A stretch of 32,588 nucleotides of DNA from contig CAMAGA010000001.1 in the NCBI GenBank assembly GCA_945833955.1, positions 1 to 32,588 of the forward strand, read 5' to 3'. The stretch comes from an uncultured Clostridia bacterium (GTDB lineage Bacteria > Bacillota > Clostridia > Christensenellales > Borkfalkiaceae). The notes under the pieces were generated by a model that saw only the letters and a list, made by a program, of their open reading frames with translations, was not told the origin of the DNA and made no database searches. The position numbers were made by a program, and so were the translations under genes. Within the stretch, counting starts at the first letter, position 1. Every line of letters starts with the position of its first letter. Below, piece after piece: positions 3,550 through 17,594 of the stretch.

Positions 3550-3578
3550 TAGACATTTGCCGGGGAATATGTTATAAT
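3550..3578 (+). promoter_or_regulatory. Promoter of the 34-residue-repeat protein gene
   Basis: TAGACA (3550-3555) and a consensus TATAAT (3573-3578) are separated by 17 bp. The transcript would start near 3585, just ahead of the AGGAGG at 3597-3602. Confidence 0.75.
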
Positions 3579-3609
3579 AAAATCAACAGATAATCAGGAG
3601 GGCATGAAA

Positions 3610-5433
3610 ATGAGTACCAAAAGACATCCCGTTTTGCGGGTATTTTCCTACATACTGGTATTTTTGATCGGTATGATCGGAATGCTTGCAGTGGAAGTGG
3701 GCGTTGTATGGTTCGGATACGATTCGATCAACGTGAAAAAAGTTTTAGATAAGGTTTATCCGGCGTATACGGAGTATATATCGGAAGATTTTGCAGACAA
3801 TACGGTTGCAGGAATCGTAAAAGAGCTGCAAAACAGCCGATTTGAAAATTTAGACGACGTAAGGAAAGTCTCCCCTTACGTGGATACGCTCCTTGCGCAG
3901 GCATCGGGCGCATTGGCAGAATACGGTTTACATATCGACACGCAAAAGCTTGCGAATACGAATTGGAACGCAATCGGCAATTACATACTGGAAGACGTGT
4001 TGTATGCGGTGGAAATCGGGCCTTTCCTCGGGATAGACGGCAACGCCGATTCCTTATTGCGTTACCTTGCATACGGTTCGGAAAACGAAGACTATACGGT
4101 TTCCGGTTCGGAAATCATCATGGCGGCAGGCAAATCTCCGAGAACGCTCGGCGCGTTGATGGATGCGGAAGAAAGAACGCAGCTCTTCAATAAGCTCAAG
4201 CTCAGCGACGTTATGCTCATCGACGAAAGCAGCCCCGTGATTTTGCAGAAGTTTGCGGAAAAGACTTTGCAGGATCTGGATACTTTCGGGCAGGAGATTG
4301 CCGTAGGCGATATCATTCAGATAGACGAAAACAGCCCCGTGATTTTGCATACCCTGAAGGACGTGGTCATCGACGACCTCGGCAATAAGCTGAACACGAT
4401 TACGTTAAAGGAAATTATCGAGATCGACGAAAACAGCTCCCCTATTCTGCAATCCTTGCAGGATAAGACGCTCTCCGAACTGGAAAACGCAACGGAAGAC
4501 ATCAAAATTTCCGATCTCTTTGAAATCGACGAAAACAGCCCCGCAATCTTGCAGAAACTCAAGGACTCCTCTTTGAAGACGCTGGAAGACGATTTGAACA
4601 ACTTGGTTCTGGGCGACGTGGTTACGGTGAACGCAAGCAGCCCGATGATTTTACGGACTTTAAAGACGACCAAGATCTCCGATTTGGGAACCAAGGTCAA
4701 CACGCTGACGCTCGGGCAGGTCATTGAAGTCAATTCCTCTTCTCCGCTCATTTTGCAGAATCTGAAGAATAAGAAGATCACGGAACTGAGCGCGGCGTTC
4801 AATGATCTGAAATTGAAGGACGTAATCACCATTCAGACGGATTCCGCGCCGATTTTGCAGAAGCTCATGAATACGAAGATTACGGAACTGGACGGAGCGG
4901 TGGATAGTCTCGTTCTCGGCGATATCATCAAAATCGACGCAACCAGCCCTGCCATTTTGCAGAAGCTTGCTTCCACGAATCTGAATAATATTGCAACCAA
5001 GGTAAACACGCTGCGTATGGAAGATATTCTCGGTGCGGAAGCATTCGGCACCAACGTCGTATTGGATGCGATCCGCAATTCCACGCTGGAAACGGTTGCA
5101 GGCGATATTTCCCGTCTGACGGTAAACGAACTGTTCAAAAACGATATTTATGACGAACACCATAATCTGACGGGCGTATGGAAGTATATGCTGACCGATA
5201 AGGATACGCATCAGGAAGCGACGATTTCCATGAACGATATTGAAAAAATGACGCAGAATGTTTCCGCGAACGTAAACGCCGCAACGCTTTCGCAGTTGGT
5301 TGCGGACGGATTGGTTGTAATGGAAGATCCTTCCGCTTTGGAAAGACAGGTTACCTTCCGGGGCCATACCCGCAAGATCGGGGATATGACCATTGCGGAG
5401 ATGATTGAATTTGTAGTAGCAAGCGGCGTATAA
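3610..5433 (+). CDS. Membrane-anchored protein with eight 34-residue repeats
   Basis: A 607-residue protein that I cannot place in a named family. A short basic N-terminus (MSTKRHPVLR) precedes one long hydrophobic segment (about 10-37), so it is probably an N-in anchor with the rest outside the cell. Residues 38-197 are mostly helical and acidic. From about 198 to 469 there are eight exact-length 34-residue repeats, consensus LGDVIxIDxxSPxILQxL followed by xxxxIxxLxxxVNxLx, then a degenerate ninth unit and a tail of about 100 residues. No catalytic motif is seen. ATG 3610 is preferred over ATG 3604, because AGGAGG at 3597-3602 leaves 7 nt to 3610 but only 1 nt to 3604. It is monocistronic, with its own promoter and terminator. 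A structural or adhesive envelope role is only a guess. Confidence 0.85.
   Translation: MSTKRHPVLRVFSYILVFLIGMIGMLAVEVGVVWFGYDSINVKKVLDKVYPAYTEYISEDFADNTVAGIVKELQNSRFENLDDVRKVSPYVDTLLAQASGALAEYGLHIDTQKLANTNWNAIGNYILEDVLYAVEIGPFLGIDGNADSLLRYLAYGSENEDYTVSGSEIIMAAGKSPRTLGALMDAEERTQLFNKLKLSDVMLIDESSPVILQKFAEKTLQDLDTFGQEIAVGDIIQIDENSPVILHTLKDVVIDDLGNKLNTITLKEIIEIDENSSPILQSLQDKTLSELENATEDIKISDLFEIDENSPAILQKLKDSSLKTLEDDLNNLVLGDVVTVNASSPMILRTLKTTKISDLGTKVNTLTLGQVIEVNSSSPLILQNLKNKKITELSAAFNDLKLKDVITIQTDSAPILQKLMNTKITELDGAVDSLVLGDIIKIDATSPAILQKLASTNLNNIATKVNTLRMEDILGAEAFGTNVVLDAIRNSTLETVAGDISRLTVNELFKNDIYDEHHNLTGVWKYMLTDKDTHQEATISMNDIEKMTQNVSANVNAATLSQLVADGLVVMEDPSALERQVTFRGHTRKIGDMTIAEMIEFVVASGV
4201..5016 (+). 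repeat. Eight tandem 102-bp (34-codon) coding repeats
   Basis: Units start at 4201, 4303, 4405, 4507, 4609, 4711, 4813 and 4915, with no length variation. Protein conservation is highest at D-[VI]-[VI]-x-[IV] and at S-[SAP]-x-[IV]-L-x-x-[LF]. DNA copies have diverged widely, apart from short blocks such as AGCCCCGTGATTTTGCA shared by units 1 and 2, so the array is old rather than freshly amplified. A weaker ninth copy starts at 5017. Confidence 0.9.
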
Positions 5434-5456
5434 TCCGCCCAAAATGAAAAAAACAG

Positions 5457-5529
5457 AACACGCCCGTCCGTTTTGCAAAAATTTTCCTGCAAAATGCCGT
5501 CAAAACGTTTGACGAACGGGCGTGTTTTC
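5457..5529 (+). terminator. Terminator of the repeat-protein gene
   Basis: An 11-bp outer stem (AACACGCCCGT 5457-5467 with ACGGGCGTGTT 5516-5526) runs into T residues. A 7-bp inner stem (CGTTTTG 5469-5475 with CAAAACG 5501-5507) extends it. The right arm overlaps the promoter of the next operon. Confidence 0.8.
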
Positions 5530-5538
5530 GTTTATAAT
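5509..5538 (+). promoter_or_regulatory. Promoter of the rpsF-ssb-rpsR operon
   Basis: TTGACG (5509-5514) and TATAAT (5533-5538) are separated by 18 bp. The -35 box and spacer lie in the descending arm of the upstream terminator, so the two signals share DNA. Confidence 0.8.
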
Positions 5539-5613: not shown

Positions 5614-5898
5614 ATGAATCAGTACGAAATGCTTTATCTTATCGACAGCTCTTTGAATGAAGAAGCCAAGAATGCAGTCGTTGCAAAGATGGAAGGTGTC
5701 GTTACGTCCATGAACGGCGTGGTTGATTCTACGGAACAGTGGGGTTTGAAAAAGCTCGCTTATCCTATCAACTACAAGAACGACGCTTACTACGTTCTTA
5801 TGAACTTCAGAGCAGAAGCACCCGTAGTTGCAGAACTCGTTCGCGTAACCGGTATCAGCGCTGAAGTCGTAAGACAGCTCATTACGAAGAAGAACTAA
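5614..5898 (+). CDS. rpsF: Small ribosomal subunit protein bS6
   Basis: A 94-residue S6 protein, which binds S18 on the platform of the 30S subunit. The sequence begins MNQYEMLYLIDSSL and has the family beta-alpha-beta pattern with WGLKKLAYPINYKNDAYYVL near 45-64. ATG 5614 is chosen over an open frame reaching back to 5554, because AGGAGG (5600-5605) lies 8 nt upstream and the S6 alignment starts there. It is first in an operon with ssb, which begins 18 nt after its stop, and rpsR. Confidence 0.97.
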   Translation: MNQYEMLYLIDSSLNEEAKNAVVAKMEGVVTSMNGVVDSTEQWGLKKLAYPINYKNDAYYVLMNFRAEAPVVAELVRVTGISAEVVRQLITKKN

Positions 5899-5916
5899 CA
5901 AGAGGTAAGAATTACT

Positions 5917-6363
5917 ATGAATAAAATATTCTTGATCGGTAATCTTACTCGCGATCCGGAGCGTTCGGAAACCCCTGCCGGTATTCCCGTTTGCCGCTTC
6001 GCTATTGCCGTAAACCGCCCGAGATCTGCAAACGGTACGCAGGAAGTTGACTACTTCAACATTACCGCATGGAGAGATCTTGGCGACAGAGTTGCGCGTT
6101 ACTTAAAAAAGGGCAACAAGGTTGCCGTTGTCGGTAGTATCCAGATGCGGAACTATGAAGACAAGCAGGGTATACAGCGCACTTACGTTGACGTTATTGC
6201 TCAGGACGTTGAATTTTTAACCCCCAAATCCCAGAACGAAGGCGATTCTTCTTCTGCATATGGCGGTGGTTCCTCTGCAGGTTATTCCGCACCCAAAAAG
6301 AAGGGCGGAGCCGTGGAGGCCTTGGAAGCTTTTGACGATGACGGCGACGACATACCATTCTAA
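5917..6363 (+). CDS. ssb: Single-stranded DNA-binding protein
   Basis: A 148-residue SSB that coats single-stranded DNA in replication, repair and recombination. The OB fold spans about 1-107, starting MNKIFLIGNLTRDPE and including DYFNITAWRDLGDRVARYL. A glycine/serine-rich linker follows, and the acidic C-terminal tip DDDGDDIPF is the docking site for partner proteins. It sits between rpsF and rpsR as in most Bacillota. The ribosome site is AAGAGGT upstream of ATG 5917. Confidence 0.97.
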   Translation: MNKIFLIGNLTRDPERSETPAGIPVCRFAIAVNRPRSANGTQEVDYFNITAWRDLGDRVARYLKKGNKVAVVGSIQMRNYEDKQGIQRTYVDVIAQDVEFLTPKSQNEGDSSSAYGGGSSAGYSAPKKKGGAVEALEAFDDDGDDIPF

Positions 6364-6386
6364 TTAAAGGATAAGGAGTCTGAATC

Positions 6387-6725
6387 ATGGAAGAAAAGAC
6401 CGTAGCTAAAAAGAACTTCAAGAGAGTTCCCCGTAAAAAGGTTTGCGCATTCTGCGAAGAAATCGCAGCTGCAAAAAAGAGAAGCCGCAAGCCCGTTGAA
6501 GAAGTAGCTGAGGAAGTTGCAGAAGTAGAAAAGAAGCCCACCTATGCAAGAAAGCCCGGCGAAATTGATTACAAGGACGTAAACTGCCTGAAGAAGTACA
6601 TTACCGAAGGCGGTAAAATCGTTCCCCGCAGAATCAGCGGCGTATGCACCAGACATCAGCGTCTGCTTGCAACCGCTATCAAGAGTGCAAGAGTCGTAGC
6701 ACTCCTTCCTTTCAAGGGAGAATAA
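6387..6725 (+). CDS. rpsR: Small ribosomal subunit protein bS18 with inserted linker
   Basis: A 112-residue S18. The C-terminal core (IDYKD at 60-64, [13 protein letters not shown] at about 80-92, ALLPF near the end) is standard. C20, C23, C67 and C87 form the zinc-ribbon pattern of the cysteine-containing S18 type. Between the CAFC motif and IDYKD there are 36 residues instead of about 7. The extra ~29 are alternating acidic and basic ([14 protein letters not shown]-like) and probably disordered or helical. There is no frameshift. It is third in the operon, 23 nt after ssb, with AAGGAG upstream of ATG 6387. Confidence 0.96.
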
Positions 6726-14795: not shown

Positions 14796-17594
14796 TTATC
14801 CGCAAAATTTTCCTTTGCGCCAGATACCCGTTTTGGTTCTGCCGCTTGCATACGTCAGTTTGCCAAAGCCGTTCGGGCGGTTGTTTTTCCACTCGCCGTC
14901 GTATACGTCGCCGTTCGGGTAGCGATAGACGCCTTTACCGTGGAATTGATTGCCTTGAAAGTTCCCGAAATACTTTCCGCCCTTGGCGTCCGTCAGCGTG
15001 CCCGTGCCGAAAGGCATATCGGCTTGCCATTCTCCGTCGTAAACGGCGCCGTCCGCATAGCGCAGTATTCCTTTGCCGTGCCGCCTGTCTTTGACAAATT
15101 CCCCCGAATAGAAATCTCCGTTCGCATAGGTAAGTTCCCCTTTGCCGTGCTTCATGCCCCGCAAAACGTCGCCCTTGTATACGTCGCCGCTCGGGTAAAG
15201 GAGCGTTCCGTTACGGTCGAATTCGTTTTCCCAAAACAGACCTTCGTAAACGAGTCCGCAATGCGCGCCGCTGCCTCGCTTGTACCGCCCCGGTCCGTTG
15301 CGCTTATCGTCCTGCCACATACCTTCGTATTCGTCGCCGCTTTCCTTGTAGGTCTGTTTGCCGTTACCGTTGCGCAGGTCGTTATAAAAAGTGCCTGCGT
15401 AGGTATCGCCGCTCGTAAACGTCATTTCTCCGTAGCCGCTTCTTTTGCCGAACACGAATCCGCCCTGATAGCGGCTGCCGTCCGCACCCACGTAGAGGCC
15501 GCTGCCGTGTTTTTGGTCGTTTTTCCATTCGCCTTGGTATACGTCGCCGTTTTTGTAGCGGTATTCTCCGTAGCCGTTCTTTTTGCCGTCGGCATAATCG
15601 CCGTTAAAACTGCATCCGTCCGCATATTGCATGATGCCCCGCCCGTGCTTTTTATCGTTTTGCCAATGCCCGGAAAATTTGTCGCCGTTTTTATAGCGGT
15701 ATTCCCCGTAGCCGTTGCGCATTCCGCAGGCGAACGCACCCGTGTATACGCCGCCTGCGTGATGCCGATAAACGCCCTGCCCCTGGGGCAAGTCGGCTTT
15801 CCATTCCCCGCTGTAAGTATCGCCGTTGGCATAAACGAGCGTACCTTTGCCGTCGCGCAGGTCGTTTTGAAAGCTCCCGTTGTACAGGTCGCCGTTCGCA
15901 TAGCGTAAAATGCCCGTGCCGTGCTTTTTATCGTGTTTCCATTCCCCCTCGAATACGTCTCCGTTCGGGTAGTGAAAGGTTCCGTAGCCTTCCAGTCGGC
16001 CGTGCTTCCATTCCCCCTGATAATTGGTGCCGTCCCGATAAAACAATGTGCCAAAGCCGCTCTGCAAATCGTTTTCAAACGTGCCGATAAACGTGCTTTC
16101 GTTCCGAAAGGTCAGAATACCGTTCCCGTTCCGCTTGTCGTCCTTCCATTCCCCCTCGTATATTTCGCCGTTTTCGGCGTAGATTTGCTTGCCCTTGCCG
16201 CTACGCAGTCCGTCGGCAAAATCGCCTCGGTACACGTTGCCGTTCGGTTCAAAAAGGCAGCCTGCCCCGTTCCGTTCGTCGTTTAAAAAAGTGCCGTCGT
16301 AAACGGTTCCGTCCGCATAGCGCAGTCTCCCTGCGCCGTTCTTTTTGTCGTTTAGCCATTCCCCGATATATACGACTTCATCGGTGGTAAAACAGGCGCC
16401 GTAACCGTTCCGTTGCCCGTTTTTCCACTCCCCGTCGTATTCGCTGCCGTCCGCATAAAACATAACGCCGTAACCGTGTTGTACGCCGCGCGCTGTCTGC
16501 CCTTCGTAAACGCCGTTCGGGTAGGTAAATCGGGGCGTGCCCGTAATAAGCCCTTGCGCCCAGATTCCGAAGCAAACGGTGCCGTCCGGATAGCGAAGTT
16601 TCCCTGCGCCGTGCCTTTTATCGTTTTCCCAGTTGCCGCAATAGCTCGTGCCGTCTGCGTCCGACCATTCGCCGTAGCCGCTTTTTTTGCCGCATACAAA
16701 GGAGCCTCTGTATTCGGATCCGTTGGCGTATCGGAATACGCCCGTGCCGTGCATGGCGCCGCCTTTCCACTGCCCGTTATAGGAACACCCCGCAAGTTGC
16801 GTATTGCTTCCGCCCGTGTAGGAGCCCTTTCCGTCGGGCAGGTCGTCCTTCCAGTCGCCGTCGTACACGGCGCCGTCCGCATAAAGCATCTTGCCCTTGC
16901 CGTGGCGCAGTTTTCCTTTGAATCCGCCCGTGTAGGAGCCGTCGGAAAAGGTGAGGCTCTCCGCCTTGGGGTAGCCGTTTTCCCAAAGGCCTTCGTAAAC
17001 GGTTCCGTCCGCATAGGATAGCTTTCCCTTCCCGTGTTTCAGTCCGTTTTTCCATTCCCCTTCGTATTCGTTCCCCCGATAGCGGGCAATGCCGAATCCG
17101 TTCGGCTTACCGCCTTCCCAGTCGCCAGAATAGGAATCGCCGTCTGCGGATTTCCATTCCCCTTTGCCGTGGCGAACGCCGTCCTGCCAATACCCTACGT
17201 ACGTGGCGTTGGCGGTCTGCGTGTTTACCGCCCAGCGGTAGGAGCCGAAGCCGTGCATCGCATCGTTCTTCCATTTCCCTTGGTACGTTCCGTTTGGTTC
17301 CTGCCATACGCCGAAGCCTTCCCGAAGTAAATTTTTCCAGTTGCCGTTGTAAACGGTGCCGTCGGGGTACCGTATGGTGCCTTTGCCGTCTAAAAGGTTG
17401 TCCTTCCAGCTGCCGTTGTAAATTTTTCCGTCTTTGGTGGTTCTGGTTCCCGTTGCAAAAAGCTTGCCGTGATTCCATTTGCCGGCATAGGTATCGCCGC
17501 TATCCCATCGCAGAGTGCCTGTGCCGTGCGGTAAGCCGGCCTTATCCAAAGTTCCGATAAAGGAACAGTCGGGCGAGAGTTTTTTGGTCGCCAT
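14796..17594 (-). CDS. Giant MORN-repeat protein, about 40 repeats
   Basis: A 932-residue protein built almost wholly of MORN motifs, consensus Y-x-G-x-W/F-x-x-x-x-x-x-G-x-G with a following Y-x-x-G-x-x. I count about 39-40 units of mostly 23 residues; a few are longer (for example after SYRWAVNTQT and GSYTGGSNTQ) and some are degenerate (CFGIWAQG, YEGQTARG). There is no signal peptide, membrane segment or catalytic domain, so it should be cytosolic and fold as one long beta-hairpin ribbon. In other proteins MORN arrays serve as scaffolds or dimerisation platforms; a bacterial role is not known. AAGGAGGAAC gives a strong ribosome site before ATG 17594. A promoter is not obvious. Internal sequence similarity makes recombination or assembly collapse possible. 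Confidence 0.93.
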   Translation of the reverse strand: MATKKLSPDCSFIGTLDKAGLPHGTGTLRWDSGDTYAGKWNHGKLFATGTRTTKDGKIYNGSWKDNLLDGKGTIRYPDGTVYNGNWKNLLREGFGVWQEPNGTYQGKWKNDAMHGFGSYRWAVNTQTANATYVGYWQDGVRHGKGEWKSADGDSYSGDWEGGKPNGFGIARYRGNEYEGEWKNGLKHGKGKLSYADGTVYEGLWENGYPKAESLTFSDGSYTGGFKGKLRHGKGKMLYADGAVYDGDWKDDLPDGKGSYTGGSNTQLAGCSYNGQWKGGAMHGTGVFRYANGSEYRGSFVCGKKSGYGEWSDADGTSYCGNWENDKRHGAGKLRYPDGTVCFGIWAQGLITGTPRFTYPNGVYEGQTARGVQHGYGVMFYADGSEYDGEWKNGQRNGYGACFTTDEVVYIGEWLNDKKNGAGRLRYADGTVYDGTFLNDERNGAGCLFEPNGNVYRGDFADGLRSGKGKQIYAENGEIYEGEWKDDKRNGNGILTFRNESTFIGTFENDLQSGFGTLFYRDGTNYQGEWKHGRLEGYGTFHYPNGDVFEGEWKHDKKHGTGILRYANGDLYNGSFQNDLRDGKGTLVYANGDTYSGEWKADLPQGQGVYRHHAGGVYTGAFACGMRNGYGEYRYKNGDKFSGHWQNDKKHGRGIMQYADGCSFNGDYADGKKNGYGEYRYKNGDVYQGEWKNDQKHGSGLYVGADGSRYQGGFVFGKRSGYGEMTFTSGDTYAGTFYNDLRNGNGKQTYKESGDEYEGMWQDDKRNGPGRYKRGSGAHCGLVYEGLFWENEFDRNGTLLYPSGDVYKGDVLRGMKHGKGELTYANGDFYSGEFVKDRRHGKGILRYADGAVYDGEWQADMPFGTGTLTDAKGGKYFGNFQGNQFHGKGVYRYPNGDVYDGEWKNNRPNGFGKLTYASGRTKTGIWRKGKFCG

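Follow-up and report, generated by a model that had tools for sequence, protein, structure and literature searches.

What kind of protein is encoded directly upstream of rpsF in an uncultured Clostridia bacterium of the Borkfalkiaceae, and what might its long and regular repeats do? The window, the stretch of 32,588 nucleotides of contig CAMAGA010000001.1 that was analysed, carries the repeat-protein gene at positions 3610..5433 of the forward strand (607 aa), and homologues of this gene were found. The open reading frame ends at 5433 and may start at 3604 or 3610; the ATG at 3610 was preferred, because a ribosome-binding site (AGGAGGG, 3596..3602, forward strand) lies 7 nt before it. A sequence-only reading of this DNA had described a stand-alone gene with a strong promoter and a strong terminator. 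The promoter-like site on the same strand (TAGACA-17-TATAAT with an extended -10 TG, 3550..3578), identified by consensus match only, indeed agrees with the consensus at 11 of 12 positions, but such sites are only mildly enriched compared to shuffled sequences (6 versus 3.6). The terminator was borne out by the sequence: 3′ of the stop codon, between the repeat gene and rpsF, a large hairpin (-57 kcal/mol, z -5.9) is followed by a T-rich tail (5451..5533, forward strand). The conserved neighbours rpsF-ssb-rpsR follow at 5614..6725 on the same strand, outside the repeat protein. Elsewhere the window encodes a second large repeat protein, of 932 aa and consisting almost entirely of MORN repeats (PF02493, 578 bits; 14796-17594, reverse strand), and a PemK/MazF-type toxin (PF02452; 14136-14531, forward strand).

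The anatomy of the protein is well supported. Hydropathy analysis revealed one hydrophobic segment (residues 6-37; 3625..3720, forward strand, as for all features below), which is preceded by basic residues and corresponds to the single N-terminal anchor that had been predicted. It is followed by a conserved N-terminal region, helical in the full-length model (residues 38-133; 3721..4008). In the repeat array, both self-comparison and the predicted structure delimit eight canonical units of 34 residues without gaps (residues 196-467; 4195..5010). The BLOSUM62 self-similarity of residues 191-500 reached maxima at three offsets only (34, 68 and 102), with 1.50-1.77 per position, while 500 shuffled controls reached at most -0.07 per position. 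The count of eight gap-free units therefore stands for the canonical units, but one more unit precedes them. This first solenoid unit (residues 134-195; 4009..4194) contains an inserted beta-hairpin (AYGxxxxDYxVxxxxIxMxxGxxPRTLG; strands 162-165 and 168-171 in the AlphaFold2 model), and units of this type are also present in relatives, in some of them in several copies per protein. The stretch behind the array, previously taken for a degenerate ninth unit, is instead a conserved C-terminal cap found throughout the family (residues 468-512; 5011..5145). With 48.9 bits, it is the top-scoring stretch of the protein against the family-wide cap profile, of which the approximate consensus is LTLxEILGxExxxxNxILKxLxxSTLxxLxxDIxxLTIxEVFxDE. 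A C-terminal domain (GVWKYMLTD...ATLSQLVADGLV...IGDMTIAEMI, residues 513-607; 5146..5430) completes the protein.

When the DNA sequences of the units were compared with each other, they were only 41-62% identical, and the identity was highest at the second codon position (0.49, 0.66 and 0.38 for the three positions), which indicates that the protein and not the DNA is under constraint. For seven of the eight units the closest match was a unit from another species, so the array of the window has been stable over a long time. By these sequence comparisons, the units of the window are old repeats that are maintained by selection at the protein level, as had been proposed from their diverged DNA and regular length.

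The fold of the repeats was predicted with AlphaFold2. For the repeat part (residues 191-511, modelled from an alignment of nine relatives) a confident and strictly periodic repeat fold was obtained, with a mean pLDDT of 85.9 and a pTM of 0.49, whereas the full-length protein reached a pTM of 0.29. In the full-length model, the first two units were poorly predicted owing to a misalignment of distant units, which was remedied by the repeat-only alignment. In each period of 34 residues, the model contains three short helices (of 4, 6-7 and 8-10 residues) and two backbone bridges, in the order bridge and 4-residue helix (GDVI), loop (IDENS), 6-7-residue helix (ILQKLK), and bridge and 8-10-residue helix (ISDLGTKVN). 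The spacing of the bridges alternates between 22 and 12 residues, and the conserved T-x-G-D and S-P positions would be compatible with helix N-caps. The solenoid-like fold suspected from the sequence is thus well supported as a predicted, continuous periodic fold; the overall shape is uncertain, since both pTM values are low. Foldseek searches of the PDB at E <= 0.001, the sensitivity of which is limited by these pTM values, returned nothing for the full-length protein or the repeat region, and the whole protein did not match any viral structure.

The unit length of 34 residues is that of the TPR and repeat families evolve fast, which would fit a divergent representative of one of the named families (TPR, Sel1, HEAT, a leucine-rich variant or similar) that was missed by profile searches. 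Nothing credible was found when the window protein was compared with Pfam, NCBIfam, PHROGs and PDB sequences, or when alignments and ten further relatives were compared with Pfam and the PDB, in agreement with the earlier failure to match the repeat to a named family. Profiles for TPR, HEAT, ARM, LRR, Sel1 and pentapeptide repeats did not match the window protein or its relatives, and a Pfam search with the window protein and 19 relatives gave only sub-threshold matches, each confined to single members. Taken together with the predicted unit, which is not the helix pair of the TPR, and with the Foldseek result, this makes a diverged named repeat quite improbable. The candidate matches to SporV_AA (SpoVAA, PF12164), TrkA_C (PF02080), NCBIfam Lep and PHROGs were rejected, being weak, not common to the homologues where this was checked, and best explained by repetitive composition; SporV_AA and TrkA_C matched the window member below threshold and did not match any of nine homologues. 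A literature search found no description of the repeat family.

To what extent is the family distributed? By protein search, 20 of 60 related genomes contain a relative; with the repeat profile, relatives were detected in 54 of the 248 genomes from the order, and these 54 belong to seven of its families. The same profile found none in genomes sampled from other orders within the class and none elsewhere in the phylum sample. Restriction of the family to one order is therefore well supported, which bears out the expectation that hits of a unit profile would be limited to related Clostridia. The window protein alone as a query against genome contigs gave no match; a profile built from a closer set found nine loci in MAGs with 'Lapin' isolate names, which we take to be from rabbit gut. 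Viral contigs and plasmids contained no family members. A phage origin was rejected, as the sole phage match, MT835476.1, turned out to be bacterial: this mislabelled scaffold contains genes for gyrA, gyrB, cysS and glutamine synthetase. This entry (L155, 22480-40713; labelled 'Bacteriophage sp.', UNVERIFIED) carries a family member of 1,035 aa.

Family members keep the anchor, the N-terminal region, the cap and usually the C-terminal domain, and the window protein has all of these in addition to its units, of which at least one characterises a member. The N-terminal profile matched 46 family ORFs and none of seven control ORFs, and the C-terminal profile matched 44 family ORFs. Used together, they recovered seven of ten slot genes that were absent from the sequence-search results, plus a marginal one, and none of seven control ORFs. 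The middle of the protein is more variable. The shortest member has 381 aa and the longest is an open frame of approximately 4,900 aa (L159/L135, genome G064, contig C15); members contain one to eight canonical units (two to seven inside genus g10). In relatives, the units are mostly spaced by 32-57 residues, with insertions, so that the window protein stands out by an array in which the spacing is exactly 34 residues throughout. Recent unit duplications were found in some relatives (L131, identity 0.89; L032, identity 0.78).

This variation of unit number among related species, the recent duplications, the single anchor and the gut origin of the named relatives (the rabbit-gut MAGs) would suit a surface adhesin or 'periscope' protein, in which a solenoid stalk of variable length displays the C-terminal domain towards the host or the environment of the gut. 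However, an LPxTG-type C-terminal sortase motif was absent from all 36 members checked, and the C-terminal domain has no similarity to any known binding domain. Moreover, the units of the window are old, with no recent length switching seen here, and the fixed chromosomal slots next to housekeeping genes or cvpA favour a household role. We therefore consider an adhesin unlikely, while taking it more seriously than a diverged named repeat.

The anchor was present in all 36 members examined and is the sole anchor in nearly all of them. The tail before it is typically basic and ranges in length from near nothing to more than 100 residues, while the net charge of the ectodomain lies between -32 and -158 in the members examined. 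In genus g10, the tails (L035, L127, L148) bear repeated DEWGDPVKK motifs; tails of other members are acidic or proline-rich. From hydropathy and charge only, we infer that the repeat protein is probably exported, with an outward-facing ectodomain and the N-terminus inside. Helical solenoids are frequent as cytoplasmic scaffolds, many relatives contain cysteines, and a membrane-bound scaffold with its repeats facing inwards would be in line with both. Against such an arrangement, basic residues tend to sit before the anchor and the strongly acidic part lies behind it in all members examined, and a pre-anchor tail of such variable length fits a free inner tail. Cytoplasmic repeats are accordingly the least probable of the alternatives, and an outward orientation is preferred. 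The genome of the window encodes a penicillin-binding transpeptidase, and a cell wall is therefore likely.

Next to which genes is the family found? Within the window's family, the repeat gene lies immediately upstream of rpsF-ssb-rpsR in the window itself and in some 28 other genomes (counted from positions), often preceded by a gene resembling that of the CCA-adding enzyme; in some genomes of this family it is located elsewhere or missing from the rpsF slot. The situation is different in families f3 and f24. Here, cvpA (Colicin_V, PF02674) lies 3-54 bp upstream of the repeat gene on the same strand at all 11 loci examined, which represent eight genera; cvpA was identified by Pfam at eight loci and by a CvpA profile built in this analysis at three. 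The gene thus stands alone in the window, as had been stated, but apparently belongs to the same operon as cvpA in two related families. Beyond cvpA, yyaC-like and ftsH-like genes are often found at the f3 and f24 loci, and a conserved divergent block (ftsH - yyaC-like / cvpA - repeat gene) is located upstream of the repeat gene in L130, L132, L133 and L138. In the window's genome, cvpA is present on another contig (L158) together with yyaC-like and ftsH-like genes and without the repeat gene. As the block persists elsewhere in this genome, the repeat gene may have left the cvpA neighbourhood in the f1 lineage.

The recurrent operon suggests, by gene order, that the repeat protein and CvpA cooperate in envelope homeostasis. 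In E. coli O157 and in two Vibrio species, resistance to deoxycholate depends on CvpA (PMC6705877). The majority of genomes in the order encode CvpA with or without the detected repeat family, so CvpA does not need the repeat protein. We also considered an inserted loop of CvpA as a dedicated docking site; this was rejected, since an enlarged CvpA is widespread in the order, both in genomes in which the repeat family was detected and in those in which it was not.

Our preferred explanation, to which we give about an even chance, is that the protein is an exported, N-terminally membrane-tethered acidic solenoid of a lineage-specific family, which serves as an envelope scaffold or spacer and is probably linked to CvpA. 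We infer this role as follows. One long hydrophobic helix would anchor the protein and keep its N-terminus inside, and the acidic ectodomain would project outwards as a stack of 34-residue units that is closed by the cap unit and then the C-terminal domain. Gain, loss and insertion of units would alter the reach of the solenoid while both ends are retained, in keeping with a role as spacer or scaffold in the zone of the cell wall. The two ends would thus carry out the specific work, the number of units would set the reach, and the protein would act together with CvpA in envelope homeostasis. Several observations weigh against this explanation: the repeat gene is not adjacent to cvpA in the window's own family, cvpA is widespread in the order independently of the repeat family, the pTM values are low, and the topology was deduced from hydropathy and charge. 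A bolder version is that the family represents a new solenoid class of one order of gut Clostridia, in which a length-variable, acidic, membrane-tethered scaffold is a dedicated extracytoplasmic partner of CvpA and helps it to keep the envelope intact, possibly in the presence of bile acids; we put this forward tentatively, as rather unlikely in its full form.

To our knowledge, gut metagenomes are the only source of genomes for most families of this order, and the envelopes of these families have not been investigated. The window protein is a good target for structure determination, being a single-copy protein of regular fold in a fixed gene slot and without a described repeat family. The cvpA operon in two families offers a tangible starting point for work on the mechanism of CvpA, which is widespread among envelope proteins and which enteric bacteria need for resistance to bile salts (PMC6705877). 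Even if the link to CvpA fails, the family is a useful addition to the catalogues of repeat families and would give names to many hypothetical proteins.

How does this protein compare with known systems? CvpA itself is likewise an envelope protein and, in families f3 and f24, is encoded directly beside the repeat protein in the apparent operon, but the two have no sequence relation and their partnership is one of gene order only. With TPR and other alpha-solenoid repeats, the protein shares a tandem arrangement of helical units with a length near 34 residues, a predicted elongated stack and a terminal cap. The TPR unit, however, consists of two antiparallel helices, whereas the unit predicted here combines three short helices with two backbone bridges; in addition, the repeat protein has neither a TPR signature nor a Pfam match, and its repeats lie behind a membrane anchor. 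Periscope proteins are surface proteins with length-variable repeat stalks. In contrast to these, the repeat protein has an N-terminal membrane-helix anchor, no sortase motif and no recognisable binding head, and occupies fixed household gene slots; the two are alike in that the number of repeats differs among relatives while both ends are conserved. Solenoid repeat envelope proteins are already known as a kind, and the repeat family described here is new to the libraries that were searched.
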